64,000 nt of DNA from contig JAQNBH010000014.1 in the NCBI GenBank assembly GCA_028752905.1, positions 4,104,595 through 4,168,594 on the forward strand. Direction: 5' to 3'. Under the pieces are notes generated by a model. It saw only the letters and a program-made list of their open reading frames with translations. It did no database searches and had not been told where the DNA came from. A program made the position numbers and the translations under genes. Within the stretch, counting starts at the first letter, position 1. Each line of letters begins with the position of its first letter. The DNA comes from Cladorhizidae sp. MBARI D1340-BT2. Its lineage: Eukaryota > Porifera > Demospongiae > Poecilosclerida > Cladorhizidae. Positions 3 through 62,500 of the stretch are shown piece after piece.

Positions 3-3000
3 ACCAAGGCCACCAAGCTGGTGGGGCCGGACCGAGTGTTACAACTACTCGAGTGTTGTGATGAGCAACTTAGGAGAGACTTGACCCGAAACGCAGGGGG
101 GACGCTCGCCGGAGGGACCGAAGAGGAAGTGCTCACGGCCATGAAGGCCCTCGCTGTCCGGGAGGAGAACGTGATGGTCGCCCGAGTAGCCCTCCATCAC
201 ATGAAGCAAGACAGGGACGAGCCCATCAGAGCGTTTGCGGCGAGATTGAGAGGACAGGCTAGCGTATGCAAGTACGTCAAGGCTTGCCCGGGATGCGATC
301 GAGAAGTGACGTATACTGAAGACATCCTCACGGACGTGCTCTGTCGAGGCATAGCAGACACAGAAATCCAAATGGATCTACTGGGAGACGCCAACCAAGC
401 GATGTCGCTCGAGCAAGCGCTCAAGTTCATCGAGGCCAAGGAAGCCGGCAGACGATCTGCCGCACGGCTATCACTTCCGCCATCAGCGGAAGCAATGGGG
501 AGCTCCTACCGAAGGCAAAGAAATACCACCCACCCCACCACCAACACACATTCCAGCCCCGAGATATGCACATACTGCGGCACCAAGGGGCACGGGAAGA
601 ACTCCCCCACCAGGATAAGACGAGTTGACTGCCCAGCATTCGGTTCCAAATGTGACAACTGTGATCGAGAGCACCACTTCAGCAAAATGTGCAGGAGTAA
701 AGGCGACCATCGACCCACTAGAGGTCAGCAGGAGAATGCACTCTCAGATATGGTATGCCAAGTGACATCGTCACAACATTCTGCCACTATTGATCACCAT
801 ACTTACAATAAGTTAACACACTCATGGATTAAGAAGCAATCCAGACCACAGCCCTACATCACCCTAACCGTGGAGACTCAACAGGACGATTACATCCGCC
901 TAGGTCAACGACTGAAGGCCCCCCAACGGAGATTCACCACGCAGGCCATGGCCGATACGGGCTGCCAGAGCTGTCTGGCTGGCACTGCCACCATGAGAAA
1001 GCTAGGACTCACCCCGAAAGAGCTCCTACCCGTTCGTCTGAGGATGCGCGCTGCCAACGACAGCAAAATCACCATCCTGGGCGCCATCCTCGTCAAGCTG
1101 GCCGAACCACAGGGCAAGAGATCCACCCGGCAGATGATTTACATCACAGACCATGTAGACAAATTCTTCCTGAGCCAAGAAGCATGCGCCGACCTCGGGA
1201 TCATCCCCACTGGATTCCCTTCATCCCACTGCGATTCAACCGACACGGATGCCGCCTCCAACCAGGACGTACTCACACTATCGGATGAACCAACGCCTTG
1301 CCAGTGCCCACGTCGCACCCCACCACCTCCAAAACTCGCCGGGGCCCCCCTCCCCACCACACCAGAGAACAGAAGCAAGATCGAGGCCTTCCTCCTCCAA
1401 CGCTACAAGGCCAGTACGTTTAACACCTGCGAACATCAGCCCCTACCCCTGATGGACGGACCCCCCCTGCGCCTCATGATCAACCCCGATGCTACCCCGA
1501 CTGCCCACCACTCCCCCATTCCAGTCCCACTCCATTGGCAGGAGGAAGTGAAAGCCGGCCTCGATCGTGACGTGCGCCTGGGAGTGCTGGAACCAGTCCC
1601 CGTGGGCGAACCCGTCACCTGGTGTCACCGGATGGTCACTTGCGCAAAGAAAAACGGCTCCCTTCGACGCACGATCGATTTTCAACCCCTGAATGCCCAC
1701 GCGACGAGGGAAACCCACCACACCCAGTCGCCATTCCATCAGGCTCGATCCGTTCCACACGACACAAGAAAAACAGTGTTTGACGCGTGGAACGGCTACC
1801 ACTCCGTCGCCCTCCATCCAGACGATCGCCACTTCACCACATTTATAACGCCATGGGGTAGATACCGTTACAAGACCGCCCCTCAGGGGTACATCGCCTC
1901 GGGCGACGGATACACCCGCCGTTACGACGAGATCGTCTCACTCGTACCAAAAAAAACGAAGTGTATAGACGACACTCTCCTATGGTCTTCCACAATCGCT
2001 GACAGCTTCCTGCAGGCCCAAGAATGGCTAGACCTCTGCGGCCGACATGGAATCACGCTCAATCCCAGCAAATTTAGATTTGCAATGGAGACGGTCGAGT
2101 TCGCAGGTTTTGAAATAACTAGCGAGACAGTACGCCCGTGCAAGAAATACACAAAGGCGATAACCGACTTTCCGACCCCTACCTCCCTCACTGACGTACG
2201 ATCGTGGTTCGGTCTCATCAACCAAGTTGCATACGCGTTCAGCATGACTGACGTTATGATACCGTTCCGATCACTACTCAAACCATCAGTGCCCTTCGAG
2301 TGGACAGATGCCCTCCAGCAGGCATTTAACAGTTCCAAACTCGCCATTATCGCGGAGATAGAACACGGGGTCACCATCTATGACAAGACTAAACCCACCT
2401 GCCTCGCAACAGACTGGTCTAAACACGGCATAGGGTACTGGCTTTTCCAAAAGCACTGCCAGTGCCCTTCCACTGACCTGTTCTGTTGCAGGGAGGGATG
2501 GCGGATCACCCTGGTCGGCAGTAGATTCACTCACCCAGCAGAGTCCCGTTATGCCCCCATCGAGGGGGAAGCATTGGCAGTAGCTGATGCCCTTGACAAG
2601 GCACGTCACTTTGTCTTGGGCTGTCACGACCTCACCATCGCTGTTGACCATCGCCCCCTTTTGAAGATCTTTGGTGACCGCTCGCTCGATATCAGTAACA
2701 TCCGCCTGAGAAACTTGAAGGAGAAGACCCTCCGCTACAGGTTTACTATGGTGCACATCCCTGGGGTGAAGAATAGGGCCCCCGATGCCCTCTCCCGCCA
2801 CCCCACAGGAGATCCCTCGCCAGACAGACTGCACCTCCAAGACGACGTCAGCCCCATATCACACCAGCTCCATCCACAGATACATATCCCGGACCTCGTA
2901 CTCACAGGACCGCACAGCATCTTCTCAGATGCCAACAAAATCATGGACGATTCGGAGATTCTACTGCAGGAATCCCTGATATCCACCCTCGACGCCACAT

Positions 3001-4490
3001 CCGTCGTAACCTGGGAAGAGGTCCAAACTGCTACCTCCTCTGACCCGATTATGTCCACGCTCCTCGAAGCGATCGAAGATGGCCTCCCAGAAACCAGACT
3101 CCAGATGCCCCTTGACATCAGAATGTTTCACAACTTCCGCCAACACCTCTACTCAGTCGACGGCGTAGTTATCTACAAGGACCGCATCGTCATCCCACCC
3201 TCCCTCCGACAAGCATGCCTCACATCGCTCCATGCCGCACACCAAGGCACATCTGCGATGACTGCCAAGGCTGAGTCAGCAATTTTCTGGCCAGGCATCA
3301 CTCGGGACATCCACCAGTTGAGAGCCACCTGCTCCACCTGCAATCGCATGGCCCCATCCCAGGCTTCACAGCCTCCAACTCCTCCCGCGTCATCCGAGTA
3401 TCCATTCCAATGCGTGTGTTCGGACTATTTCCATTACAAGGGACACGCATACCTGGTGATTGTCGATCGTTACACAAACTGGCCCATCGTCGAGCGGGCG
3501 ACGAACGGATCAAAAAGCCTCATCGACGTGCTCCGACGTACATTCGCCACCTATGGTATCCCCGACGAGCTCGCGTCCGACGGCGGTCCCGAATTTACCG
3601 CCCATGACACCCAACGCTTCCTACAGGATTGGAGGGTTCATCACCGCCTAAGCTCCGTCGCCTTTCCACACGGCAACTGCCGCGCCGAGATAGCGGTCAA
3701 GACAATAAAGCGCCTCATCTCCGGCAACGTGAGAACCGATGGCAACCTCAACGTCGACTCCTTTCAGCGTGCCATATTGCAATATCGAAACTCACCAGAC
3801 CCCGCCACCAAGCAATCCCCCGCGTCATGCTTATTCGGCCGCCCCACCAAGGACCTGATCCCGATACTCCCTGGCAAATACCATCCTCACCAGACCTGGC
3901 AAGACAACCTGTCTCTGAGAGAGTCGGCACTTCGCCAGCGCCACTGCCTCGCACAGGACCGCTGGTCCGAACATACCAGAACCCTCACCCCACTCAAGAT
4001 CGGTGACAGGGTACGTATCCAGAACCAAATTGGTAACTACCCCACCAAATGGGACAGAACTGGTACCGTCGTGGAAGTCAAGCAATTCCACCAATATCAA
4101 GTCCGGGTGGACGGATCTGGACGCCTCTCCCTCCGCAACAGACAGTTCCTCAGGCGCTTCACCCCAGCGAACACCCCAACGGCTCGCAGATCAATCCTAG
4201 ACGACATGGCCACCATTCCTCGGCCACCACTAACGTTTCCTATTACTGCTGTCGACCCTACACAACCCCCCATCACCCCTACCACTCCTATACCCACCCC
4301 ACATCCACCACCAACCCCATCGCTGGACACTCCCATCACCACGCCCGCCCAGCCTCCTACCCCATCCACCCCGTCCCGCCCTACCACTCCGGCCCCTTCC
4401 GGGATCATCCCACGGGACACCACCACAGAGCAACCACCGCCTTTACGACGATCCAAAAGAACCAGGAAGCCACCTAACCGGCTGTTCTGA
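3..4490 (+). CDS. Gag-Pol polyprotein of a Ty3/gypsy-like LTR retrotransposon, 5' incomplete
   Basis: One uninterrupted frame of about 1,495 codons runs in from the left edge, so the true start is outside. Order seen: a Gag-like region; a Cys/His knuckle cluster (CTYC at 567, a second cysteine set to about 690); aspartic protease with DTG at 954-962; reverse transcriptase with catalytic Asp at 1782 and an IDD (YxDD-like) motif at 1965-1973; RNase H with Asp at 2412, Glu near 2562-2570 and Asp at 2646; integrase with an HHCC zinc finger (about 3231-3345) and a DD35E triad (Asp 3423, Asp 3579, Glu 3687). The tail from about 4200 is rich in Pro and Thr and ends basic. Domain order PR-RT-RH-IN is that of Ty3/gypsy. 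There is no stop or frameshift between Gag and Pol and no envelope-like frame follows. The intact frame suggests a young copy (inference). Confidence 0.93.
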   Translation, partial: TKATKLVGPDRVLQLLECCDEQLRRDLTRNAGGTLAGGTEEEVLTAMKALAVREENVMVARVALHHMKQDRDEPIRAFAARLRGQASVCKYVKACPGCDREVTYTEDILTDVLCRGIADTEIQMDLLGDANQAMSLEQALKFIEAKEAGRRSAARLSLPPSAEAMGSSYRRQRNTTHPTTNTHSSPEICTYCGTKGHGKNSPTRIRRVDCPAFGSKCDNCDREHHFSKMCRSKGDHRPTRGQQENALSDMVCQVTSSQHSATIDHHTYNKLTHSWIKKQSRPQPYITLTVETQQDDYIRLGQRLKAPQRRFTTQAMADTGCQSCLAGTATMRKLGLTPKELLPVRLRMRAANDSKITILGAILVKLAEPQGKRSTRQMIYITDHVDKFFLSQEACADLGIIPTGFPSSHCDSTDTDAASNQDVLTLSDEPTPCQCPRRTPPPPKLAGAPLPTTPENRSKIEAFLLQRYKASTFNTCEHQPLPLMDGPPLRLMINPDATPTAHHSPIPVPLHWQEEVKAGLDRDVRLGVLEPVPVGEPVTWCHRMVTCAKKNGSLRRTIDFQPLNAHATRETHHTQSPFHQARSVPHDTRKTVFDAWNGYHSVALHPDDRHFTTFITPWGRYRYKTAPQGYIASGDGYTRRYDEIVSLVPKKTKCIDDTLLWSSTIADSFLQAQEWLDLCGRHGITLNPSKFRFAMETVEFAGFEITSETVRPCKKYTKAITDFPTPTSLTDVRSWFGLINQVAYAFSMTDVMIPFRSLLKPSVPFEWTDALQQAFNSSKLAIIAEIEHGVTIYDKTKPTCLATDWSKHGIGYWLFQKHCQCPSTDLFCCREGWRITLVGSRFTHPAESRYAPIEGEALAVADALDKARHFVLGCHDLTIAVDHRPLLKIFGDRSLDISNIRLRNLKEKTLRYRFTMVHIPGVKNRAPDALSRHPTGDPSPDRLHLQDDVSPISHQLHPQIHIPDLVLTGPHSIFSDANKIMDDSEILLQESLISTLDATSVVTWEEVQTATSSDPIMSTLLEAIEDGLPETRLQMPLDIRMFHNFRQHLYSVDGVVIYKDRIVIPPSLRQACLTSLHAAHQGTSAMTAKAESAIFWPGITRDIHQLRATCSTCNRMAPSQASQPPTPPASSEYPFQCVCSDYFHYKGHAYLVIVDRYTNWPIVERATNGSKSLIDVLRRTFATYGIPDELASDGGPEFTAHDTQRFLQDWRVHHRLSSVAFPHGNCRAEIAVKTIKRLISGNVRTDGNLNVDSFQRAILQYRNSPDPATKQSPASCLFGRPTKDLIPILPGKYHPHQTWQDNLSLRESALRQRHCLAQDRWSEHTRTLTPLKIGDRVRIQNQIGNYPTKWDRTGTVVEVKQFHQYQVRVDGSGRLSLRNRQFLRRFTPANTPTARRSILDDMATIPRPPLTFPITAVDPTQPPITPTTPIPTPHPPPTPSLDTPITTPAQPPTPSTPSRPTTPAPSGIIPRDTTTEQPPPLRRSKRTRKPPNRLF

Positions 4491-23500: not shown

Positions 23501-26500
23501 TACTCCCTTAGTACCAGAAGATTTGTTTCAAGAGCTTTCCAATGATGTACTTTATGTATGTAGGCTTGTAAGTCTGTGCAGTGATGACTAGCATACTCCC
23601 TTAGTACCAGAAGATAGCTTGTTTCAAGAGCTTTCCAATGATGTACTTTGTGGAGGCTTGTAAGTCTGTACAGTGATGACTAGCATACTCCCTTAGTACC
23701 AGAAGATAGCTTGTTTCAAGAGCTTTCCAATGATGTACTTTATGTATGTAGGCTTGTAAGTCTGTGCAATAATGACTAGCATACTCCCTTAGTACCAGAA
23801 GATAGCTTGTTTCAAGAGCTTTCCAATGATGTACTTTATGTATGTAGGCTTGTAAGTCTGTGCAGTGATGACTAGCATACTCCCTTAGTACCAGAAGATT
23901 TGTTTCAAGAGCTTTCCAATGATGTACTTTATGTATGTAGGCTTGTAAGTCTGTGCAATAATGACTAGCATACTCCCTTAGTACCAGAAGATAGCTTGTT
24001 TCAAGACAATGATGTACTTTATGTATGAAGGCTTGTAAGTCTGTGCAGTGATGATAGATACACACTCTTCAAAGTTGTACCTGATCACCTTAAAAATGCT
24101 CTAAAATGACAGAATGTGTTAGCACTTCCCAATCACATGTGTAACAGAACTACATAAATGTTATGAGCGGGAATCCCCCCCCCCCCCCCCCCAAATACCA
24201 CAAGAGAACCAGAGACCAATAAAGATTTCTTTTTCTGAAAGAAAGAGTCAGAGGCAAACATTAAGTTTTCACTGGTACAAACCAACCAAAAGGCTCTCTC
24301 TGCTCATAACATTGTGTGGTTCTGTTACCCTGCCTGTGAGTGGGAAATGCCTACAGGCACTTAGAGCATTTTAAAGGTGATTAGAGTACGAAGAGAGTGT
24401 TTGTATCTTCACTGTAGAGACTTACAAGCCTTCATAAAGTACATCATTGGAAAGCTCTTGAAACAAGCTATCTTCTGGTACTAAGGGAGTCTATTAGTCA
24501 TCACTGTACAGACTTACAAGCCTTCATAAAGTACATCATTGAAAAGCTCTTGAAACAAGCTATCTTCTGGCACTAAGGGTGTATGCTAGTCATCACTGTA
24601 CAGACTTACAAGCCTTCATAAAGTATATCATTGGAAAGCTATTGAAACAAGCTATCTTCTGGTACTAAGGGAGTATGCTAGTCATCACTGCACAGACTTA
24701 CAAGCCCACATAAAGTACATCATTGGAAAGCTCTTGAAACAAGCTATCTTCTGGTACTAAGGGAGTATGCTAGTCATCACTGTACAGACTTACAAGCCTC
24801 CATAAAGTACATCATTGGAAAGCTCTTGAAACAAGCTATCTTCTGGTACTAAGAGAGTATGCTAGTCATCGCTGCACAGACTTACAAGCCTTCATAAAGT
24901 ACATCATTGGAAAGCTCTTGAAACAAGCTATCTTCTGGTACTAAGGGAGTATGCTAGTCATCGCTGCACAGACTTACAAGCCTTCATAAAGTATATCATT
25001 GGAAAGCTCTTGAAGAAAAGCTTTCGTTTTGCTACGGAATGAGGGAAAAAACAAATTACAGGTTAAAAAAAGGTAAACCTCCCCCCTCCCCCCATTAGGC
25101 ACAATGAGGGTGGTCCTCAGATGTGGCTGATTAGGAGTTATAGGGGGCAGTGCCATCCCAAGCTGTGCCCAAGCTGTCTGGATAGTGGGAGTTTAAATAG
25201 CAGATGTTGCTAATTGGTGTTTACCTGAGCTGATGTTCTCTGTTTGCAGGGTGGGCCAGCCCGGAGTGGAACTTACTGGCACGCATGATGACGGCAATAA
25301 AGTGTTACAGATATTGCCATTTGCTTCTGAGGTGAGAGTGAAGCTAGGGTAGCTTCCCCCTGTCACAAACCCGGCATTACATCATCACGATGTCATCAGT
25401 AGTATACAGATCAATTCTGGACTAGGGCTTCAGTTAGGGTTGGGCCCAGGGCAATTGCTAGAGAATCTAACAGTGTCCATTATGATGACGTAATGATGAC
25501 GTAATGATGACGTAATGATGACGTAATGACGATGCAATGCTAGGGTCTTGTGACATAGGAAAGCCTTGCATGTCTGTGGCTGTGTTGGGGGTCGGTATAT
25601 TTCGGGGAGGGGGTGCCGAAAGAAACTTCCTGGTTGAAATGTGGCTGTGATAGTTCAAAGATTTCAACAAGAATTCTTTCCTACACTTGCATTGAAAGTT
25701 ATGTGTATCTCAGAATCCTCCCAGCCAAACACATGTGTGTGTCGTTGGTTTTGCTGAAGCTGATTGCTTTGTTGAAACGTTGGCAAAAATAGTTGATGAC
25801 CCACTAGATATTATTTGCTAGGGACACCCAAACCTTAACTATGGGGTGTGGGAGGATGAGGAGGCTGTGGTGGACAGTGCTTCACGATTGACCTCCAGGA
25901 AAAGCCAGGAGGTGTGGATGTGTAATTAGTCCTTGTCAATATCTTGGACGTGATTCCAACCACCAAATAATGGGCCCTCGAGAATTTTCCAAGGAAGTTG
26001 AATATTTCTTCTTGCTAGTCCATGTAGGAGGGTTGGTGTTGTCTCTGGGGTGGAGGTAGACAGGAACTTGCCCTGGAGTAGTAGCTGTTGTTTTGACTGC
26101 ACTGAGTGTCGAGTTCCAATGAGCCAGTTAAAACACGCACTCCTTCTCTGTCCAGTGGTAGTTAAAACACACACTCCACTCCTTCTCTGTCTAGTGTTAG
26201 TTAAAACACACACTCCACTCCTTCTCTGTCTAGTGGTAGTTAAAACACACACTCCACTCCTTCTCTGTCCAGTGGTAGTTAAAACACACACTCCACTCCT
26301 TCTCTGTCCAGTGGTAGTTAAAACACACACTCCACTCCTTCTCTGTCCAGTGGTAGTTAAAACACACACTCCACTCCTTCTCTGTCCAGTGGTAGTTAAA
26401 ACACACACTCCACTCCTTCTCTGTCCAGTGGTAGTTAAAACACACACTCCACTCCTTCTCTGTCCAGTGGTAGTTAAAACACACACTCCACTCCTTCTCT

Positions 26501-29500
26501 GTCTAGTGGTAGTTAAAACACACACTCCACTCCTTCTCTGTCTAGTGGTAGTTAAAACACACACTCCACTCCTTCTCTGTCCAGTGGTAGTTAAAACACA
26601 CACTCCACTCCTTCTCTGTCCAGTGGTAGTTAAAACACACACTCCACTCCTTCTCTGTCCAGTGGTAGTTAAAACACACACTCCACTCCTTCTCTGTCCA
26701 GTGATAGTTAAAACACACACTCCACTCCTTCTCTGTCCAGTGGTAGTTAAAACACACACTCCACTCCTTCTCTGTCTAGTGGTAGTTAAAACACACACTC
26801 CACTCCTTCTCTGTCCTAGTTAAAACACACACTCCACTCCTTCTCTGTCTAGTGATAGTTAAAACACACACTCCACTCCTTCTCTGCCCAGTGGTAGTTA
26901 AAACACACACTCCACTCCTTCTCTGTCTAGTGGTAGTAAAACACACACTCCACTCCTTCTCTGTCTAGTGATAGTTAAAACACACACTCCACTCCTTCTC
27001 TGTCTAGTGGTAGTTAAAACACACACTCCACTCCTTCTCTGTCTAGTGGTACTTAAAACACACACTCCACTCCTTCTCTGTCCAGTGGTAGTTAAAACAC
27101 ACACTCCACTCCTTCTCTGTCTAGTGGTAGTTAAAACACACACTCCACTCCTTCTCTGTCCAGTGGTAGTTAAAACACACACTCCACTCCTTCTCTGTCT
27201 AGTGGTAGTTAAAACACACACTCCACTCCTTCTCTGTCCAGTGGTAGTTAAAACACACACTCCACTCCTTCTCTGTCCAGTGGTAGTTAAAACACACACT
27301 CCACTCCTTCTCTGTCTAGTGATAGTTAAAACACACACTCCACTCCTTCTCTGTCCAGTGGTAGTTAAAACACACACTCCACTCCTTCTCTGTCTAGTGG
27401 TAGTTAAAACACACACTCCACTCCTTCTCTGTCCAGTGGTAGTTAAAACACACACTCCACTCCTTCTCTGTCTAGTGATAGTTAAAACACACACTCCACT
27501 CCTTCTCTGTCTAGTGGTAGTTAAAACACACACTCCACTCCTTCTCTGTCCAGTGGTAGTTAAAACACACACTCCACTCCTTCTCTGTCTAGTGGTAGTT
27601 AAAACACACACTCCACTCCTTCTCTGTCTAGTGGTAGTTAAAACACACACTCCACTCCTTCTCTGTCTAGTGGTAGTTAAAACACACACTCCACTCCTTC
27701 TCTGTCCAGTGGTAGTTAAAACACACACTCCACTCCTTCTCTGTCTAGTGGTAGTTAAAACACACACTCCACTCCTTCTCTGTCCAGTGGTAGTTAAAAC
27801 ACACACTCCACTCCTTCTCTGTCCAGTGGTAGTTAAAACACACACTCCACTCCTTCTCTGTCCAGTGGTAGTTAAAACACACACTCCACTCCTTCTCTGT
27901 CCAGTGGTAGTTAAAACACACACTCCACTCCTTCTCTGTCCAGTGGTAGTTAAAACACACACTCCACTCCTTCTCTGTCTAGTGGTAGTTAAAACACACA
28001 CTCCACTCCTTCTCTGTCCAGTGGTAGTTAAAACACACACTCCACTCCTTCTCTGTCCAGTGGTAGTTAAAACACACACTCCACTCCTTCTCTGTCTAGT
28101 GGTAGTTAAAACACACACTCCACTCCTTCTCTGTCCAGTGGTAGTTAAAACACACACTCCACTCCTTCTCTGTCCAGTGGTAGTTAAAACACACACTCCA
28201 CTCCTTCTCTGTCCAGTGGTAGTTAAAACACACACTCCACTTCTTCTCTGTCTCTGTCTAGTGGTAGTTAAAACACACACTCCACTCCTTCTCTGTCCAG
28301 TGGTAGTTAAAACACACACTCCACTCCTTCTCTGTCCAGTGGTAGTTAAAACACACACTCCACTCCTTCTCTGTCCAGTGGTAGTTAAAACACACACTCC
28401 ACTCCTTCTCTGTCTAGTGGTAGTTAAAACACACACTCCACTCCTTCTCTGTCCAGTGGTAGTTAAAACACACACTCCACTCCTTCTCTGTCTAGTGGTA
28501 GTTAAAACACACACTCCACTCCTTCTCTGCCCAGTGGTAGTTAAAACACACACTCCACTCCTTCTCTGTCCAGTGGTAGTTAAAACACACACTCCACTCC
28601 TTCTCTGTCCAGTGGTAGTTAAAACACACACTCCACTCCTTCTCTGTCTAGTGGTAGTTAAAACACACACTCCACTCCTTCTCTGTCTAGTGGTAGTTAA
28701 AACACACACTCCACTCCTTCTCTGCCCAGTGGTAGTTAAAACACACACTCCACTCCTTCTCTGTCCAGTGATAGTTAAAACACACACTCCACTCCTTCTC
28801 GTAGTTAAAACACACACTCCACTCCTTCTCTGTCCAGTGGTAGTTAAAACACACACTCCACTCCTTCTCTGTCCAGTGGTAGTTAAAACACACACTCCAC
28901 TCCTTCTCTGTCTAGTGATAGTTAAAACACACACTCCACTCCTTCTCTGTCCAGTGGTAGTTAAAACACACACTCCACTCCTTCTCTGTCTAGTGGTAGT
29001 TAAAACACACACTCCACTCCTTCTCTGTCTAGTGGTAGTTAAAACACACACTCCACTCCTTCTCTGTCTAGTGGTAGTTAAAACACACACTCCACTCCTT
29101 CTCTGTCCAGTGGTAGTTAAAACACACACTCCACTCCTTCTCTGTCCAGTGGTAGTTAAAACACACACTCCACTCCTTCTCTGTCCAGTGGTAGTTAAAA
29201 CACACACTCCACTCCTTCTCTGTCTAGTGGTAGTTAAAACACACACTCCACTCCTTCTCTGTCTAGTGGTAGTTAAAACACACACTCCACTCCTTCTCTG
29301 TCCAGTGGTAGTTAAAACACACACTCCACTCCTTCTCTGTCTAGTGGTAGTTAAAACACACACTCCACTCCTTCTCTGTCCAGTGGTAGTTAAAACACAC
29401 ACTCCACTCCTTCTCTGTCTAGTGGTAGTTAAAACACACACTCCACTCCTTCTCTGTCTAGTGGTAGTTAAAACACACACTCCACTCCTTCTCTGCCCAG

Positions 29501-32500
29501 TGGTAGTTAAAACACACACTCCACTCCTTCTCTGTCCAGTGGTAGTTAAAACACACACTCCACTCCTTCTCTGTCCAGTGGTAGTTAAAACACACACTCC
29601 ACTCCTTCTCTGTCCAGTGGTAGTTAAAACACACACTCCACTCCTTCTCTGTCTAGTGGTAGTTAAAACACACACTCCACTCCTTCTCTGTCCAGTGGTA
29701 GTTAAAACACACACTCCACTCCTTCTCTGTCTAGTGATAGTTAAAACACACACTCCACTCCTTCTCTGTCTAGTGATAGTTAAAACACACACTCCACTCC
29801 TTCTCTGTCCAGTGGTAGTTAAAACACACACTCCACTCCTTCTCTGTCTAGTGATAGTTAAAACACACACTCCACTCCTTCTCTGTCCAGTGGTAGTTAA
29901 AACACACACTCCACTCCTTCTCTGTCCAGTGGTAGTTAAAACACACACTCCACTCCTTCTCTGTCCAGTGGTAGTTAAAACACACACTCCACTCCTTCTC
30001 TGTCCAGTGGTAGTTAAAACACACACTCCACTCCTTCTCTGTCCTAGTGGTAGTTAAAACACACACTCCACTCCTTCTCTGTCTAGTGGTAGTTAAAGCA
30101 CACACTCCACTCCTTCTCTGTCTAGTGATAGTTAAAACACACACTCCACTCCTTCTCTGTCCAGTGGTAGTTAAAACACACACTCCACTCCTTCTCTGTC
30201 CAGTGGTAGTTAAAACACACACTCCACTCCTTCTCTGTCCAGTGGTAGTTAAAACACACACTCCACTCCTTCTCTGTCCAGTGGTAGTTAAAACACACAC
30301 TCCACTCCTTCTCTGTCTAGTGGTAGTTAAAACACACACTCCACTCCTTCTCTGTCCAGTGGTAGTTAAAACACACACTCCACTCCTTCTCTGTCCAGTG
30401 GTAGTTAAAACACACACTCCACTCCTTCTCTGTCCAGTGGTAGTTAAAACACACACTCCACTCCTTCTCTGTCCAGTGGTAGTTAAAACACACACTCCAC
30501 TCCTTCTCTGTCCAGTGGTAGTTAAAAACACACACTCCACTCCTTCTCTGTCTAGTGGTAGTTAAAACACACACTCCACTCCTTCTCTGTCCAGTGGTAG
30601 TTAAAACACACACTCCACTCCTTCTCTGTCTAGTGGTAGTTAAAACACACACTCCACTCCTTCTCTGTCCAGTGGTAGTTAAAGCACACACTCCACTCCT
30701 TCTCTGTCTAGTGATAGTTAAAACACACACTCCACTCCTTCTCTGTCCAGTGGTAGTTAAAACACACACTCCACTCCTTCTCTGTCCAGTGGTAGTTAAA
30801 ACACACACTCCACTCCTTCTCTGTCCAGTGGTAGTTAAAACACACACTCCACTCCTTCTCTGTCCAGTGGTAGTTAAAACACACACTCCACTCCTTCTCT
30901 GTCTAGTGGTAGTTAAAACACACACTCCACTCCTTCTCTGTCCAGTGGTAGTTAAAACACACACTCCACTCCTTCTCTGTCTAGTGGTAGTTAAAACACA
31001 CACTCCACTCCTTCTCTGTCCAGTGGTAGTTAAAACACACACTCCACTCCTTCTCTGTCTAGTGGTAGTTAAAACACACACTCCACTCCTTCTCTGTCCA
31101 GTGGTAGTTAAAACACACACTCCACTCCTTCTCTGTCTAGTGGTAGTTAAAACACACACTCCACTCCTTCTCTGTCCAGTGGTAGTTAAAACACACACTC
31201 CACTCCTTCTCTGTCCAGTGGTAGTTAAAACACACACTCCACTCCTTCTCTGTCCAGTGGTAGTTAAAACACACACTCCACTCCTTCTCTGTCCTAGTGG
31301 TAGTTAAAACACACACTCCACTCCTTCTCTGTCTAGTGGTAGTTAAAACACACACTCCACTCCTTCTCTGTCCAGTGGTAGTTAAAACACACACTCCACT
31401 CCTTCTCTGTCTAGTGGTAGTTAAAACACACACTCCACTCCTTCTCTGTCCAGTGGTAGTTAAAACACACACTCCACTCCTTCTCTGTCCAGTGGTAGTT
31501 AAAACACACACTCCACTCCTTCTCTGTCCAGTGGTAGTTAAAACACACACTCCACTCCTTCTCTGTCTAGTGGTAGTTAAAACACACACTCCACTCCTTC
31601 TCTGTCCAGTGGTAGTTAAAACACACACTCCACTCCTTCTCTGTCCAGTGGCAGTTAAAACACACACTCCACTCCTTCTCTGTCCATTGGTAGTTAAAAC
31701 ACACACTCCACTCCTTCTCTGTCCAGTGGTAGTTAAAACACACACTCCACTCCTTCTCTGTCTAGTGGTAGTTAAAACACACACTCCACTCCTTCTCTGT
31801 CCAGTGGTAGTTAAAACACACACTCCACTCCTTCTCTGTCCAGTGGCAGTTAAAACACACACTCCACTCCTTCTCTGTCCATTGGTAGTTAAAACACACA
31901 CTCCACTCCTTCTCTGTCCAGTGGTAGTTAAAACACACACTCCACTCCTTCTCTGTCTAGTGGTAGTTAAAACACACACTCCACTCCTTCTCTGTCTAGT
32001 GATAGTTAAAACACACACTCCACTCCTTCTCTGTCTAGTGGTAGTTAAAACACACACTCCACTCCTTCTCTGTCTAGTGGTAGTTAAAACACACACTCCA
32101 CTCCTTCTCTGTCTAGTGATAGTTAAAACACACACTCCACTCCTTCTCTGTCTAGTGGTAGTTAAGAATGAATGCTCACATGGTGGCAAGTTCATAAAGA
32201 ATGCAGCTTGAGAGTGAGTGTGCGTGTTTAACCGATTCACAGCCGTAGATGCCATATACAGCTATTTTTTTGTAACGACTGCAATAATAAAATAATAATA
32301 TCAAATTGTTCATCTGAGCTATGCTTATGCTAAAGATGTCTAGGCATGCCCAGTGCTTGGCTTCAGCTAAATAAAAAAAGATCTCAGATGTAGCACTTTG
32401 ATAACTAGGGTAATCCTGACCTCAAACTTTCTTGTGCAAACGAAAAAAGTGGTTTCGAGACTAAATGTGAGTGATGTTTTAGCAATGCTGGATGGCAATG

Positions 32501-35500
32501 ATTTTAGGCTCTCTGCAGTGGAAAGTAGCGACGAGGAAGTTGAAGGGAATTTTGGGACAACACCCTAGAGACCTGGAGGAGCTCTAGCAGCTCTGAGTGA
32601 AATGGTGGATTCTCAACCTGTGTTTGGCCAGGCCAGTGATAGATCCGCTGATGTTCCTAGAGATCAAGATATGGACTCTTATGATGGTGAACAACAGGAA
32701 CTAGAGCTCCCTGGTGGTAAATAGCTCTACTCATAAGCTTGTATCCGAGTCTGCTTTTGTTTTGTTTTCTGACATATCAATTTGAGCAAAATAGTATTTA
32801 CCCAGGTACTTCGTGGGAGCTATTCTATCTATCTATCTATCTATCTAGTGGCTATGATCTTGATCTGGCCAGTACATGTAGAGAAGAAGAACAAGTGTAT
32901 TGAATGTCTAGTAATAACAGAGAGAAATGATCTCCCTGGCAATAGGCTTTCATCAAATGCTCTAGTTGTAATGTCCACGTTTGTGTTGTAAATGGCAGGG
33001 ACTGTTAAAAATGATACCACTGTACAGGTTTCATACATGGGGAGGGGGGGGGGGGGGGATTTCCCCCCAAAATAATTTCTCTCCCCCCCCCCCAAGAATT
33101 TTCACAATAAAAATTTATATTAATGAATTTTTTAATGTAATACATTACAGTAACGGGAAAAGTAACGGGGGGAAAGAGCAGTACAGAGAAGGGAACGTAG
33201 AAGCTATAGCTAATATAATTAGGTAACTTTTATTATTTATACTGGCATATACAAAGCATACCTCAACTAAAAGAGAGTCAAACCTCTCCTAGACATCCTC
33301 AAATATCTGAAATGACTCTCTGGGTCAGACAGCCTCATCTCTTGTAGGAGATTGTTATATCCATGCTTACAGCGAGTGAATATAGGGCGTACCCACAAAC
33401 TATTCTGTGGCAAGATGCAACTGTGTCATAATCTAGAATGTTCTGTCCATAGGAAAGTACCCTCAAAATGTCTCAGAATCAATCTGAGAGCATCGATTTT
33501 TCCCCCAGACCCCCCTACTTGGGGCTTGCTTACGCACACCCATCACGTAAACACCAAACATCTTGACTTTCCCCTCCCCCAAACTGTAAATCCTGTATTA
33601 ACCCTATGAACCCCTGCCACACACTCACAGATGGATCAAGCCGTTTATAGTGGACCTTTTAGTCCTTTGAACCTTCGCGAGCTCTACGTACGACCATAAC
33701 TCTGCCACTACACTTACTCTCTTTGTTTTGATCTTGGCTCCTCACATCTTTACTTCCTTCCCAAACACTCACTTCACCAGCTAGGAACTTCACTCTGCTG
33801 CTACACTCCACTCTCTCTCATCTTTACTTCCTTCCCAAACACTCACTTCACCAGCTCTGCAAGGAACTTCACTCTGCTGCTACACTCCACTCTCTCTCAT
33901 CTTTACTTCCTTCTCAAACACTCACTTCACCAGCTCTGCAAGGAACTTCACTCTGCTGCTACACTCCACTCTCTCTTANNNNNNNNNNNNNNNNNNNNNN
34001 NNNNNNNNNNNNNNNNNNNNNNNNNNNNNNNNNNNNNNNNNNNNNNNNNNNNNNNNNNNNNNNNNNNNNNNNNNNNNNCCAGTGAACTTCAACTAGACTA
34101 GGTAGGAATGCATGGACCAGTGAAACTTCAACTAGACTAGGTAGGAACTGCACAGGACCAGTGAACCCTTCAACTAGACTAGGTAGGAATGCACTGGACC
34201 AGTGAAACTTCAACTAGACTAGGTAGGAATGCACTGGACCAGTGAACCTTCAACTAGATAGGTAGGCATGCACTGGACCAGTGAAACTTCAACTAGACTA
34301 GGTAGGAATGCACTGGACCAGTGAAACTTCACTAGACTAGGTAGGATGCACTGGACCAGTGAAACTTCAACTAGACTAGGTAGGAATGCACTGGACCAGT
34401 GAAACTTCAACTAGACTAGGTAGGAATGCACTGGACAGTGAAACTTCAACTAGACTAGGTAGGAATGCACTGGACCAGTGAAACTTCAACTAGACTAAGG
34501 TAGGAATGCACTGGACCAGTGAAACTTCAACTAGACTAGGTAGGAATGCACTGGACCAGTGAAACTTCAACTAGACTAGGTAGGAATGCACTGGACCAGT
34601 GAAACTTCAACTAGACTAGGTAGGAATGCACTGGACCAGTGAAACTTCAACTAGACTAGGTAGGAATGCACTGGACCAGTGAAACTTCAACTAGACTAGG
34701 TAGGAATGCACTGGACCAGTGAAACTTCAACTAGACTAGGTAGAATGCACTGGACCAGTGAAACTTCAACTAGACTAGGTAGGAATGCACTGGACCAGTG
34801 AAACTTCAACTAGACTAGGTAGGAATGCACTGGACCAGTGAAACTTCAACTAGACTAGGTAGGAATGCACTGGACCAGTGAAACTTCAACTAGACTAGGT
34901 AGGAATGCACTGGACCAGTGAAACTTCAACTAGACTAGGTAGGAATGCACAGGACCAGTGAAACTTCAACTAGACTAGGTAGGAATGCACTGGACCAGTG
35001 AAACTTCAACTAGACTAGGTAGGAATGCACTGGACCAGTGAAACTTCAACTAGACTAGGTAGGAATGCACTGGACCAGTGAAACTTCAACTAGACTAGGT
35101 AGGAATGCACTGGACCAGTGAAACTTCAACTAGACTAGGTAGGAATGCACAGGACCAGTGAAACTTCAACTAGACTAGGTAGGAATGCACTGGACCAGTG
35201 AAACTTCAACTAGACTAGGTAGGAATGCACTGGACCAGTGAAACTTCAACTAGACTAGGTAGGAATGCACAGGACCAGTGAAACTTCAACTAGACTAGGT
35301 AGGAATGCACTGGACCAGTGAAACTTCAACTAGACTAGGTAGGAATGCACTGGACCAGTGAAACTTCAACTAGACTAGGTAGGAATGCACTGGACCAGTG
35401 AAACTTCAACTAGACTAGGTAGGAATGCACTGGACCAGTGAAACTTCAACTAGACTAGGTAGGAATGCACTGGACCAGTGAAACTTCAACTAGACTAGGT

Positions 35501-38500
35501 AGGAATGCACTGGACCAGTGAAACTTCAACTAGACTAGGTAGGAATGCACTGGACCAGTGAAACTTCAACTAGACTAGGTAGGAATGCACAGGACCAGTG
35601 AAACTTCAACTAGACTAGGTAGGAATGCACAGGACCAGTGAAACTTCAACTAGACTAGGTAGGAATGCACAGGACCAGTGAAACTTCAACTAGACTAGGT
35701 AGGAATGCACTGGACCAGTGAAACTTCAACTAGACTAGGTAGGAATGCACTGGACCAGTGAAACTTCAACTAGACTAGGTAGGAATGCACAGGACCAGTG
35801 AAACTTCAACTAGACTAGGTAGGAATGCACTGGACCAGTGAAACTTCAACTAGACTAGGTAGGAATGCACTGGACCAGTGAAACTTCAACTAGACTAGGT
35901 AGGAATGCACTGGACCAGTGAAACTTCAACTAGACTAGGTAGGAATGCACAGGACCAGTGAAACTTCAACTAGACTAGGTAGGAATGCACAGGACCAGTG
36001 AAACTTCAACTAGACTAGGTAGGAATGCACAGGACCAGTGAAACTTCAACTAGACTAGGTAGGAATGCACAGGACCAGTGAAACTTCAACTAGACTAGGT
36101 AGGAATGCACAGGACCAGTGAAACTTCAACTAGACTAGGTAGGAATGCACTGGACCAGTGAAACTTCAACTAGACTAGGTAGGAATGCACTGGACCAGTG
36201 AAACTTCAACTAGACTAGGTAGGAATGCACTGGACCAGTGAAACTTCAACTAGACTAGGTAGGAATGCACAGGACCAGTGAAACTTCAACTAGACTAGGT
36301 AGGAATGCACTGGACCAGTGAAACTTCAACTAGACTAGGTAGGAATGCACAGGACCAGTGAAACTTCAACTAGACTAGGTAGGAATGCACAGGACCAGTG
36401 AAACTTCAACTAGACTAGGTAGGAATGCACTGGACCAGTGAAACTTCAACTAGACTAGGTAGGAATGCACAGGACCAGTGAAACTTCAACTAGACTAGGT
36501 AGGAATGCACAGGACCAGTGAAACTTCAACTAGACTAGGTAGGAATGCACTGGACCAGTGAAACTTCAACTAGACTAGGTAGGAATGCACAGGACCAGTG
36601 AAACTTCAACTAGACTAGGTAGGAATGCACTGGACCAGTGAAACTTCAACTAGACTAGGTAGGAATGCACAGGACCAGTGAAACTTCAACTAGACTAGGT
36701 AGGAATGCACTGGACCAGTGAAACTTCAACTAGACTAGGTAGGAATGCACTGGACCAGTGAAACTTCAACTAGACTAGGTAGGAATGCACAGGACCAGTG
36801 AAACTTCAACTAGACTAGGTAGGAATGCACAGGACCAGTGAAACTTCAACTAGACTAGGTAGGAATGCACTGGACCAGTGAAACTTCAACTAGACTAGGT
36901 AGGAATGCACTGGACCAGTGAAACTTCAACTAGACTAGGTAGGAATGCACTGGACCAGTGAAACTTCAACTAGACTAGGTAGGAATGCACTGGACCAGTG
37001 AAACTTCAACTAGACTAGGTAGGAATGCACTGGACCAGTGAAACTTCAACTAGACTAGGTAGGAATGCACTGGACCAGTGAAACTTCAACTAGACTAGGT
37101 AGGAATGCACTGGACCAGTGAAACTTCAACTAGACTAGGTAGGAATGCACTGGACCAGTGAAACTTCAACTAGACTAGGTAGGAATGCACAGGACCAGTG
37201 AAACTTCAACTAGACTAGGTAGGAATGCACAGGACCAGTGAAACTTCAACTAGACTAGGTAGGAATGCACTGGACCAGTGAAACTTCAACTAGACTAGGT
37301 AGGAATGCACTGGACCAGTGAAACTTCAACTAGACTAGGTAGGAATGCACTGGACCAGTGAAACTTCAACTAGACTAGGTAGGAATGCACAGGACCAGTG
37401 AAACTTCAACTAGACTAGGTAGGAATGCACTGGACCAGTGAAACTTCAACTAGACTAGGTAGGAATGCACTGGACCAGTGAAACTTCAACTAGACTAGGT
37501 AGGAATGCACAGGACCAGTGAAACTTCAACTAGACTAGGTAGGAATGCACAGGACCAGTGAAACTTCAACTAGACTAGGTAGGAATGCACAGGACCAGTG
37601 AAACTTCAACTAGACTAGGTAGGAATGCACTGGACCAGTGAAACTTCAACTAGACTAGGTAGGAATGCACAGGACCAGTGAAACTTCAACTAGACTAGGT
37701 AGGAATGCACAGGACCAGTGAAACTTCAACTAGACTAGGTAGGAATGCACAGGACCAGTGAAACTTCAACTAGACTAGGTAGGAATGCACAGGACCAGTG
37801 AAACTTCAACTAGACTAGGTAGGAATGCACAGGACCAGTGAAACTTCAACTAGACTAGGTAGGAATGCACTGGACCAGTGAAACTTCAACTAGACTAGGT
37901 AGGAATGCACAGGACCAGTGAAACTTCAACTAGACTAGGTAGGAATGCACTGGACCAGTGAAACTTCAACTAGACTAGGTAGGAATGCACTGGACCAGTG
38001 AAACTTCAACTAGACTAGGTAGGAATGCACTGGACCAGTAAAACTTCAACTAGACAAGATGACAAGATCAACGTGCTTGCAAGTGGATACAAGATCAAAG
38101 CCCATCCATGTTGGTTGTGAGGTCATTGTGTTCTGAGATGTCATTCAAAGGACACCTGATGCCTACAAATTGTCAGTTAGAGATGCTCTTGGTAACATCA
38201 CTACCACTGGCATGGAAAATCCCATGGTGGTGGTCTCAACACAGACCTGCATACATGTGTTGTGAGTGGAGTATGGCTAGGTATTGAATGGTCTACTGGA
38301 GTTGTGACTAGGTCATGCATCAGTAATGCGCGGCTAATCTTGAATGATGAATGTCTTTCTTGTCATTATCCTAGCATGACATTGTTATGATTGTTGAGGA
38401 GACGCTTGTGTAATCTCACATGCATGTAGAGTATGTATCTGACAGGCTGAGAACTTGCCAGCATTATGGCCTGTGTGCTAGTGAAAGAGAAGGCTCTCCC

Positions 38501-56500: not shown

Positions 56501-59500
56501 GTTGAACTCCTGATGAAGGCTAGATGTTGAACTCCTGATGAAGGCTAGATGTTGAATTCCTGATGAAGGCTAGGTGTTGAATTCCTGATGAAGGCTAGAT
56601 GTTGAATTCCTGATGAAGGCTAGATGCTCTAGCCTGGTGAAGGCTAGATGTTGAATTCCTGATGAAGGCTAGATGTTGAACTCCTGATGAAGGCTAGATG
56701 TTGAACTCCTGGTGAAGGCTAGATGCTCTAGCCTGGTGAAGGCTAGATGTTAAATTCCTGGTGAAGGCTAGATGTTGAATTCCTGATGAAGGCTAGATGT
56801 TGAATTCCTGATGAAGGCTAGATGTTGAATTCCTGATGAAGGCTAGATGCTCTAGCCTGGTGAAGGCTAGATGTTGAATTCCTGATGAAGGCTAGATGTT
56901 TAATTCCTGATGAAGGCTAGATGCTCTAGCCTGGTGAAGGCTAGATGTTGAATTCCTGATGAAGGCTAGATGTTTAATTCCTGATGAAGGCTAGATGTTG
57001 AACTCCTGATGAAGGCTAGATGTTGAATTCCTGGATGCTCTAGCCTTGAATTCCTGGTGAATACTAGATTATCTGCCGAAACGTTGAGCGGAGAGATTTA
57101 AATTGATTATCGAGAAAGTCATCGTATCTGTTATATTAACTGAGGGTTTGTTAAGAATAGTGGTGATAGTAGTAGTAGTAGTAGTAGTAACATTAGTAGT
57201 AGTAACATTATTAATTAAATTGAAGACTGTTATTTTCCCAATGCTGTAGCTTTTGATTGGTTACGAGCACAACTACCTGGAGCTCTGGGATGCCCTTACT
57301 TGGAAGCCCATTATGTACTTTGGCGTGCTCAGGGACAAGGAGGTTGGCGACTTGCTGGCCGCCAGCTGGAGCTCAGTAGGCACCCAGTTTGTGACGACGC
57401 ACAAGGATGGGTCTTTCCTCTTTTTCGACATCAACTCTGACTCCACCCAGCCTTTCAGGATATCACGTCCTCATGGTACAGTGCATGGTGCAGGCAACAG
57501 GGTGGTGTAGATATGTTCCGTCTTGTTGCAGGCACTGAGTGTGTGCAGGACATGGGTCTGTTGCTCTGGCCCAAGGAGGGCCTTCTGATTGTGAGTGGTG
57601 GCGCACCACTGAGTCTGGTTGACGGACACTGTATCTCCATCCTGGAGGGTGATGAGGTCTGTGCCTTGCAGCTAACTTCACCCGTGAGAGGTCAGTAGAG
57701 CAGGTTGATGTTTCTACACCTAGCTATGCCTTCACCCGTGAGAGGTCAGTAGATGCAGGTTGATGTTTCTAGACCTAGCTATGCCTTGCAGCTAACTTCA
57801 CCCGTGAGAGGTCAGTAGATGCAGGTTGATGTTTCTACACCTAGCTATGCCTTGCAGCTAACTTCACCCGTGAGAGGTCAGTAGATGCAGGTTGATGTTC
57901 CTACACCTAGCTATGCCTTGCAGCTAACTTCACCCGTGAGAGGTCAGCAGATGCAGGTTGGCTATGCCTTGCAGCTAACTTCACCCGTGAGAGGTCAGTA
58001 GATGCAGGTTGATGTTCCTACACCTAGCTATGCCTTGCAGCTGACTTCACCCGTGAGAGGTCAGTAGATGCAGGTTGATGTTCCTACACCTAGCTATGCC
58101 TTGCAGCTAACTTCACCCGTGAGAGGTCAGTAGATGCAGGTTGATGTTTCTACACCTAGCTATGCCTTGCAGCTAACTTCACCTGTGGGAGGTCAGTAGA
58201 TGCAGGTTGATGTTCCTACACCTAGCTATGCCTTGCAGCTAACTTCACCCGTGAGAGGTCAGTAGATGCAGGTTGATGTTCCTACACCTAGCTATGCCTT
58301 GCAGCTAACTTCACCCGTGAGAGGTCAGTAGATGCAGGTTGATGTTTCTACACCTAGCTATGCCTTAACTTCACCCGTGAGAGGTCAGTAGATGCAGGTT
58401 GATGTTCCTACACCTAGCTATGCCTTGCAGCTAACTTCACCCGTGAGAGGTCAGTAGATGCAGGTTGATGTTTCTACACCTAGCTATGCCTTGCAGCTAA
58501 CTTCACCCGTGAGAGGTCAGTAGATGCAGGTTGATGTTCCTACAACTAGCTATGCCTTGCAGCTAACTTCACCCGTGAGAGGTCAGTAGATGCAGGTTGA
58601 TGTTCCTACACCTAGCTATGCCTTGCAGCTAACTTCACCCGTGAGAGGTCAGTAGATGCAGGTTGATGTTCCTACAACTAGCTAGCAGAACACCGGCCCT
58701 GTGCATGGGTGTTCCCAGCCCTGTGCGTGGGTGTTCCCCATCCTGTGCGTGGGTGTTCCCAGCCCTGTGCATGGGTGTTCCCCATCCTGTGCGTGGGTGT
58801 TCCCTGCCCTGTGCGTGGGTGTTCCCAACCCTGTGCGCGGGTGTTCCCAACCCTGTGCGTGGGTTTTCCCTGCCCTGTGCGTGGGTGTTCCCTGCCCTGT
58901 GCGTGGGTGTTCCCTGCCCTGTGCGTGGGTGTTCCCTGCCCTGTGCGTGGGTGTTCCCTGCCCTGTGCGTGGGTGTTCCCACTCCCTCAAGGTCAACACT
59001 AATCTACAACAGGGACTCGAGTGCCCACTCCCTCCGTATCTGCCCTAGTTGGACTGTTATGGATATTTTAAAGCCCCCAAACTGGGTCCAAAACCTTCCT
59101 GGAGTCCAATTCCAATCCCTCCATGCAACATGTGTGGGTCAGCCCAAAGTTTCCTGTTTGGATACTATTAATGAATGCCGTCAGCAACTTTGTGCAATAT
59201 TCAATGATTGGATATTATCCCCCCCCCCCCCCCCCCCATGGGTTGACTCCAGCAAAAGTGTAAATAAGGTTTATAACTGAAGGTTCGGCATCCCAAGGGG
59301 TTGTTTTAAGGGATCCCCCCTCAGATCATCAGTGCTGGCCATGTGTCTGCCCTAGTTAGGACATTATGGCACACACACACACACACTCTCTCAATAGGTT
59401 ATGCGAAGTCTTCAGGTGGAGAACTGTTATTGCTCATTATAGCCCTAGCCAGGCTAGTATGCCCTATAGCCCTAGCCAGGCTAGTATGGGCCCATAGCCC

Positions 59501-62500
59501 TAGCCAGGCTAGTATGGTCCTATAGCCTAGCCAGGCTAGTATGGTCCTATAGCCTAGCCATAGTATATTTATATTTACCCTATTTATTTAAATTTATTGT
59601 TAGTTTGTTAGTTTGTTTATTTGTTTATTTATTATTTATTTATTTATTATTTATTTATTTATATTTATTTATTTATTTATCAACTTATTTATTTATTATT
59701 TATTTATATTTATTTATTTATGATTTAATTCATTTAATTAATTATTTTTTAATTTCCGGTTTATTTATTTATATTTTTACCCTATTTATTTACCCTTATA
59801 TTTACCGTATTTAATTTACCGTATTTAATATTTATTTATCTATTTATATATATATATATATTATATATATTTTATTTACCCCGTTATATTTCATTTAATT
59901 AAGAGCTAGTGTGTTATCTTCTGAAACTGCGTCGTCTCCTGTGGCTGTCCATGTTCAATAGAAATTCTCTCGGCAGTTAGCAGTGGAAGGATTGTGTTAT
60001 TTAAAAAAAATTAATTTTATGCAGCGATACACGTGTTGGAAGGCGTCCAACAGGACAAGGACTCGGGCATAGTCAACTTCAGCGACAACCACGAAGGAGA
60101 CAGTTCCGTGACCAACAAGAGGGTGCTCATACTACTGCTGGAGCAAGAAATCCTGTTCATTGAGCTGAGCCTTCCCGAGTAAGAGCACATGCCATCCTCA
60201 GGCACGATCAGTTACTTACATGTGTTTCTTGCGTTCCCCAGGCTCCCTCTGCTCCGCCCACCCTATTTCTATTCCATACACAACTCGCCGGTGAAGTGTA
60301 TGGAAGTGTATGAGTCCGTACCCAAGGAGGTGTGGCAGACTATCAACCAGGCTGGCAAGGTTCAGTTGGACATAGTATATGCAAGTAGAACTAAGACTTG
60401 GCCCATCGATGGAGGTGTGATGGAGCAGGTGGCTGAAGACAGCAGGGACCTGCTGGTGACTGGGTGAGTTGTGGCTGCACACTGCAGCATCTTGACCTAG
60501 CCAAGGGCAAGATGTTCTTGAGTGTAATATGTTTGCTGCCATTTGCTAGCCCATGCAAAGTTCCGCTCAAGCTGGTTGTTCATTCCCATTAAAGTTCCAC
60601 TCAAGCTGGTTGTTGATTCCCATGTAAAGTTCCGCTCAAGCTGGCTGTTCATTCCCGTGCAAAGATCCGCTCAAGCTGGTTGTTGATTCCCATGCAAAGT
60701 TCTGCTCAAGCTGGTTGTTGATTCCCATGCAAAGATCTGCTCAAGCTGGTTGTTGATTCCCATGTAAAGTTCCGCTCAAGCTGGTTGTTGATTCCCATGC
60801 AAGGTTCCGCTCAAGCTGGTTGTTGATTCCCATGCAAAGTTCCACTCAAGCTGGTAGTTGATTCCCATGCAAAGTTCCGCTCAAGCTGGTTGTTGATTCC
60901 CATGTAAAGTTCCACTCAACTGGTTGTTCATTCCCATGCAAGGTTCCGCTCAAGCTGGTTGTTGATTCCCATGCAAAGTTCCGCTCAAGCTGGTTGTTGA
61001 TTCCCATGCAAAGTTCCGCTCAAGCTGGTTGTTGATTCCCATGCAAAGTTCCGCTCAAGCTGGTTGTTGATTCCCATGCAAAGTTCCGCTCAAGCTGGTT
61101 GTTGATTCCCATGCAAAGTTCTGCTCAAGCTGGTAGTTGATTCCCATGCAAAGTTCCACTCAAGCTGGTTGTTCATTCCCATGCAAAGTTCCACTCAAGC
61201 TGGTTGTTGATTCCCATGCAAAGTTCTGCTCAAGCTGGTAGTTGATTCCCATGCAAGGTTCCTCTCAAGCTGGTTGTTGATTCCCATGCAAAGTTCCACT
61301 CCAGCTGGTTGTTGATTCCCATGCAAAGTTCCGCTCAAGCTGGTTGTTGATTCCCATGCAAAGTTCTGCTCAAGCTGGTAGTTGATTCCCATGCAAAGTT
61401 CCACTCAAGCTGGTTGTTCATTCCCATGCAAAGTTCCACTCAAGCTGGTTGTTGATTCCCATGCAAAGTTCTGCTCAAGCTGGTAGTTGATTCCCATGCA
61501 AAGTTCCACTCAAGCTGGTTGTTGATTCCCATGCAAAGTTCCACTCAAGCTGGTTGTTGATTCCCATGCAAGGTTCCTCTCAAGCTGGTTGTTGATTCCC
61601 ATGCAAAGTTCCACTCCAGCTGGTTGTTGATTCCCATGCAAAGTTCCGCCCAAGCTGGTTGTTGATTCCCATGCAAAGTTCCGCCCAAGCTGGTTGTTGA
61701 TTCCCATGCAAAGTTCCGCCCAAGCCGGGGTTAGACTGCAACTACAAAGAGCTGCAGTTGGTGAAGAGTCAGCTCCATTGAAGTAAGCAAGCAATGTCTA
61801 CGCAGCTCACCACTGTACGTTGCTCTGTCTACGACAAAACGTAAAGCCAAGAAATGAACTCATGGAGCACCTCTTTCCAACAAAGTGAAGGCGATCCAGG
61901 TATGCTTACTGGGTAACCTTCCATTCAAAGGAGGCCTTTCAGAAGCAGCAAGGCCAGCGAAGATACCATTCATGATCGCAGTGGCAACCATCAATCTTAA
62001 AATATCTTTTTTAATCGTTTGCTCCCTCTCCACCAAACCAGAAGTCAAGTCGTATTGACATAGCTCTCTGCTGGGCATGTGCAGTAAGATGATTCCATGA
62101 TTAGCCATGATTAGCCATGATTAGCCATGATTAGCCATGATTAGCGTGTAGTTCCTTTTTATCGGTTTAAATATTTTTTTAATTAAAAAAAATTAGCGGT
62201 ATCCGAGTTTGGGGAAATATCCACTAACGACATATGCAGGGGCTTACAGTGTAGCGTCAGCCAGCAAGGAAATGAACCCGTAATGCCTAGCAGCTACTTA
62301 CAAGTAGACCTTATGCACCAACGTCGGTGTCTGATGGGTACGGATCAGGGAACACGTGCCTTGGGGGGGTTAACAAACAGTTTTTTTAAATGTTGTAAAA
62401 AGCCGAGCCTGTTGAGTATCATGTGGCAACCTGTCTGCAAATCTGTGAGTTGGCTAGCAATTGCCGACTGCCGAGCGGGGGAAATATAATCGCTACCAAG

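Follow-up and report, generated by a model that had tools for sequence, protein, structure and literature searches.

The locus analysed here raises the question of how the end of a coding exon and its splice donor came to be repeated in tandem, and of what splicing makes of the copies. The window (the whole 64-kb stretch of DNA under study) carries part of an LLGL gene, and an earlier note had placed at 57663 to 58684 a minisatellite derived from the end of its exon 8. The amplification was clearly recovered. A forward-strand tandem array composed of exon end, donor and intron start was delimited by unit alignment and TRF at 57662 to 58684, the end being as first described and the start lying one base upstream. 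It contained 16 head-to-tail units in all, in keeping with the estimate of about 15 added copies. The 66-bp unit does span the exon 8 end and donor, and its consensus is split into 29 nt of exon end and 37 nt of intron starting with the donor GTCAGT, not into 28 and 38 nt as previously given. Unit length was 66 bp in 12 of the 16 units (units 1, 2, 5 and 12 measured 65, 55, 51 and 60 bp), and the step from donor to donor was 66 bp in 12 of 15 cases, the others being 54, 51 and 60 bp. TRF by itself called the array at 57730-58684 with a period of 66 and a score of 1294.

Splice signals were widely retained among the units. All 16 displayed the donor GT, 15 the sequence GAG/GTCAGT and 14 the longer AGAG/GTCAGT (missing from units 5 and 9), which had rightly been said to persist in nearly every copy. 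CTTGCAG, reported for most copies, was likewise found in 14 of 16, being absent from units 2 and 12, in which part of the exonic stretch was missing; the exact 26-nt segment CTTGCAG...GAGAG was present in 12. The first full 66-bp copy, unit 3 (57782 to 57847, forward strand), displayed in unit alignment and splice-site model an acceptor-like CTTGCAG, a potential micro-exon of 19 nt and a donor. When the array consensus was aligned with 34 LLGL junction windows, the exon 8 donor scored 108 and all others 18 or less, so that the match with exon 8 is not due to chance. When the exon end was searched against the DNA of the whole genome, at least 15 matches came back, every one within the array; this search passes over very common words and its counts are lower bounds. 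Units differed little from one another: the exonic part displayed 5 differences in 447 bases, two of which arise from how the shortened unit 2 was aligned, the intronic part 10 in 576, and whole units 15 in 1023. Conservation of the two parts was thus about equal, and the small number of differences indicates an array that is either young or homogenised, as read in one haplotype of one assembly.

The gene around the array was modelled with 18 exons, placed by tblastn with sponge LLGL proteins, from 8487 (window) to 85138 (joined window-plus-downstream coordinates). Its joined frame comprised 1101 open codons and terminated in a conserved ERAL followed by a stop; outside the array the gene is intact, as judged from its sequence. 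Among the best 8000 candidates scored, a 751-residue exon-joined translation displayed 41-42 % identity to LLGL of Geodia, Ephydatia and Amphimedon and 43 % to one further protein, and its nearest relatives from named organisms were demosponge proteins, which makes it demosponge-like. The Pfam LLGL profile had two matches in the genome, both outside this gene, and at one of these loci (L009) the exon was continuous through the matching place, without an intron. A search for family Lgl_C gave no match in this genome; as 14 controls were likewise without a match, this result carries no information. Other repeats observed in the gene were a coding 21-bp repeat in exon 18 (seven-residue units, 2.8 copies; 84829-84887 in joined coordinates) and minisatellites of 39 bp (~155 copies, 26138-32165) and 40 bp (~100 copies, 34079-38055).

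The identification of the amplified exon as LLGL exon 8 was borne out by the sponge-ortholog tblastn and the 18-exon model. Exon 8 (57532 to 57690, forward strand) was defined by tblastn, splice sites and the open 1101-codon frame, and its last 29 nt (57662-57690) form the exonic part of unit 1. The exon-attached 5' splice site, GAG/GTCAGT, occupies 57691 to 57696 on the same strand and was assigned from the frame and the sponge orthologs; just past it, at 57696 to 57698, lies an in-frame TAG that any later donor would keep in the transcript. Intron 8 (57691 to 60024, 2334 nt) contains the LLGL array and three other tandem arrays (TRF and exon model), the next of which (58696 to 58980, TRF) consists of 13 copies of a 22-bp unit with no visible kinship to the exon. 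Exon 9 follows at 60025 to 60178 (tblastn and exon model; all forward strand). With exon 8 ending at 57690 and the acceptor of exon 9 at 60024/60025, the joined protein reads ...QLTSPVR-AIHVLEGV..., where orthologs read ...QLTSPVRGMHILEDV... and similar. The sequences across this joint were QLTSPVRGMHILE (P0001), QLTSPVRGMHVLE (P0003), QLTSPVKGMQIIE (P0004) and VTSTVKGMHILE (P0002); there is a single joint there and none of the four sponge orthologs displayed extra residues. Because the orthologs run continuously across the joint between first donor and exon 9, LLGL protein is presumably made in cells with the exon-attached donor.

A small splice-site weight matrix was trained on the 17 LLGL introns and applied to the copies, the real exon 8 donor being left out when scored. 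That donor obtained 8.1, as did 14 of the 15 extra donors, unit 5 reaching 5.7. Unit acceptors obtained 7.1; of the 164 AGs in intron 8, only the real acceptor of exon 9 scored higher, with 8.3. The units thus do resemble 19-nt micro-exons with both signals, as had been remarked. The predicted consequences of their use also held: in-frame trials of donors 2, 3, 6 and 16 all read into the TAG and gave a stop after residue 330, and inclusion of one 19-nt micro-exon shifted the frame, with a stop after residue 380. With two or three micro-exons the stop came after residue 335. Successive 19-nt pieces would be separated by 47 nt, the shortest introns of LLGL being 56, 59, 63 and 73 nt; given this proximity and the good unit scores, the micro-exon idea is not a silly one. 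Some mis-splicing into array units is plausible in view of the near-real scores that the matrix assigns to donors and acceptors. Selection on the unit donors was also considered: the donor hexamer displayed one change in 96 bases, versus 15 in 1023 over whole units, which are too few changes for any claim of constraint.

Exon-end arrays were not unique to LLGL and recurred at other genes of this genome. The loci of 76 myosin-head profile matches, 74 of which had DNA available, were scanned for tandem copies crossing exon ends, and the candidates were read by eye, a myosin consensus being used. Together with LLGL, five arrays at donors (LLGL, L034, L079, L087 and L098) and one at an acceptor (L092) were retained. 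At L079 the exon end AAAGCTATG/GTAGGT was followed by 22-bp units, GT being present in all seven extra copies listed. At L098 four copies carried up to 21 exonic nt. At L087 a 129-bp unit that includes about 21 exonic nt was present twice, apparently an early stage of array birth. The extra donors were kept at these three loci. L034 (minus strand, C14), with 31-bp units including 7 exonic nt, had the donor GT changed to CT or TT in all 15 extra copies listed; its array was found by two scans and missed by a stricter self-repeat scan. At L092 (C6), units mostly of 39 bp carried the acceptor and about 20 exonic nt in at least seven copies upstream of the exon, whose start was deduced from the profile match. 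For L098 the donor is compatible with how the following exon (L056) begins, and the exon ends of L034, L079 and L087 are putative, read by eye. The boundaries of a profile match do not exactly coincide with those of an exon, some matches fall within one and the same exon or stem from a pair of near-identical genes on C13, and exon ends lying far beyond a match escape the survey.

Several candidates were left uncounted. A 53-bp array beginning 11-16 nt downstream of LLGL exon 12 aligned just loosely with the exon end; at the acceptors of LLGL exon 16 and L033, both flagged by the self-repeat scan, the repeated part was intronic; and at L066 the profile match extended into an A-rich repeat, with a likely donor before it. 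The first three donor cases had suggested a strict asymmetry between donors and acceptors ("first come, first served" splicing). This idea is not supported, given the acceptor case L092 and the small numbers: five donors versus one acceptor (two-sided sign test, ~0.2) are too few to indicate a bias.

Other observations were made along the way. Pyrimidine- or TTG-rich tandem repeats reached or adjoined the acceptor at L032, L033, L037, L067, L081 and LLGL exons 5 and 18, where the repeat would serve as, or adjoin, the polypyrimidine tract. The two very similar myosin genes on C13 lie at about 5.16-5.22 Mb and 5.50-5.57 Mb, and the pair could be used for comparing array turnover between copies. 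With a kinesin profile, ~56 of 127 rows (hand count) were similar pieces from around positions 202-275 of the profile, the majority containing a single TAG, located on C11 at about 37.4-40.1 Mb and on several small contigs; they look like an amplified fragment, perhaps pseudogenes. A stop-free frame of 1495 residues at 3-4487 of the window (forward strand) looked, by eye, like a retroelement gag-pol.

The incidence of junction arrays was compared with that expected if minisatellites were seeded at random. The assembly comprises 857 Mb in 325 contigs. TRF masked 55 % of the 64-kb window, and tandem repeats made up a fraction of 0.408 of ten 4-kb samples from elsewhere, N bases included (~0.33 without them). 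The 76.7-kb LLGL gene was covered to 58 % by 45 minisatellites (period of at least 10, length of at least 100). At its 34 junctions, one spanning array was seen versus 1.3 expected; at 148 match ends of the myosin heads (74 of 76 matches), five were seen versus 3.8 expected, the latter estimated from the repeat density of 30 loci with 1.5-kb flanks. Cut-offs differed, being 8 nt on each side and arrays of at least 100 bp for LLGL, and 6 nt and at least 40 bp for myosin. Globally, the 18 LLGL exons and 74 of the 76 myosin-head matches displayed six arrays versus ~5 expected, with no sign of enrichment over random seeding among these 92 exons or exon matches. Of the 182 exon ends sampled (34 junctions in LLGL and 148 ends of myosin matches), six carried an array, a rate of ~3 in 100.

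Arrays of this kind, in which an exon-intron boundary is duplicated in tandem in the manner of a minisatellite, have been described in amphioxus as "mirages". They are reported in the globin genes BflGb6 and BflGb9 and in Adh3 (PMC3087553), those of Adh3 being credited to Canestro et al. 2002. Units there measure 10-72 bp in Adh3 and about 150-160 bp in the globins, and many keep AG/GT; the BflGb6 mirage has six and three units in two haplotypes, and globin RT-PCR and Adh3 data are said to suggest that regular splicing is undisturbed (PMC3087553). The LLGL array is a mirage by structure. Its units likewise span an exon-intron boundary (29 exonic nt, donor and 37 intronic nt) and fall within the Adh3 size range with their 66 bp, and AG/GT is kept in many units and not in all (GT in 16 of 16, CTTGCAG in 14 of 16). 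As in amphioxus, several genes and both exon ends are affected, with five donors and one acceptor among the 92 sponge exons and exon matches. In contrast to the mirages described in cephalochordates, the LLGL case resides in a demosponge-like genome; it has 16 units versus six and three in BflGb6, and it is known from the DNA of one assembly, whereas copy-number variation and RT-PCR were reported for amphioxus. Among the literature matches listed, no exon-boundary minisatellite from a sponge was found.

Two further systems are instructive. In human IFI6, according to PMC4526556, a minisatellite contains multiple splice donors, two downstream units of which are used, giving three mRNAs. Donors in such arrays are thus not always ignored. 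The likeness lies in repeat units that are 5' splice sites (predicted ones in LLGL), but later donors are reported as used in IFI6, whereas any later donor in LLGL would lead to a stop after residue 330. The potato RdRp gene displays a tandem duplication that carried splice signals along (PMC4974935). The LLGL duplication also includes splice signals; unlike in the potato case, its copies sit inside an existing intron and no new intron or exon is seen.

The LLGL array is very probably a mirage in the functional sense as well, i.e. a by-product of very common minisatellite birth that is tolerated by the gene and ignored by splicing. A short tandem duplication would by chance have straddled this boundary, taking in the end of exon 8, its donor and the first part of intron 8, and the minisatellite would have grown from it; the original exon and donor are still intact at the array's 5' edge. 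Splicing would then use the exon-attached donor and the other 15 copies would leave with intron 8, which we propose as the reason why the array is tolerated. Since the exon-attached donor remains, splicing most likely ignores the array, which is most likely harmless to LLGL; its copy number would drift, presumably in a neutral manner.

The high scores of the copies invite a different reading, in which extra donors and 19-nt micro-exons compete, the stop-bearing transcripts are degraded and copy number sets the dose of LLGL. This reading draws on the signals of most units, whose donor scores as high as the real one and whose acceptor is second only to the real one out of 164 AGs, on every alternative tried ending in a stop, and on the use of downstream repeat donors in IFI6 (PMC4526556). 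It is nevertheless improbable: the frequency of arrays fits random seeding, donor conservation does not clearly exceed that of the remainder of the unit (1/96 versus 15/1023), the L034 array lost its donor in 15 of 15 extra copies listed, and the amphioxus mirages were reported (PMC3087553) as apparently not disturbing splicing. Quite improbable, too, is that the 15 extra donors and 13 acceptor-flanked 19-nt units act as decoys diverting LLGL pre-mRNA into stop-bearing, degraded forms, with array length setting the dose; if this were true, array length, which is expected to mutate fast, would dose a cell-polarity gene. The tuning of LLGL dose by copy number is without support and, though possible, unlikely.

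The splice signals could also have been put to use through intron gain by tandem duplication, with units present in the mature mRNA. AG and GT do occur in most units, the 47-nt spacing is slightly under the shortest LLGL introns (56, 59, 63 and 73 nt), and precedents are provided by potato RdRp (PMC4974935) and by a model for amphioxus globins (PMC3087553). All unit inclusions tried, however, broke the frame, and the four sponge LLGL orthologs are without extra residues at the joint, which leaves this reading very improbable. An origin of the array, or of its number of copies, in misassembly is scarcely credible: tandem arrays are hard to assemble and a 100-base gap is found elsewhere in the window (33979-34078), but the units display scattered variants and four distinct length changes, and further genes in this assembly carry arrays of the same kind.

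As a tolerated mirage, the LLGL array extends exon-boundary minisatellites, known from amphioxus, to a sponge and provides a rough frequency for them (6 of 182 exon ends). Such a genome constitutes a natural experiment on splice-site choice, in which many identical donors are offered and the exon-attached one is obviously right. The array with dead donors at L034, beside those with live donors, and the mirror-image acceptor case at L092 supply contrasts for studying such choice. How equal sites are told apart by the spliceosome, and whether genes pay a price for the growth of minisatellites, would be directly visible in RNA of this species. The general message, that this genome suits the study of choice among identical splice sites, is more useful than the single case of LLGL.
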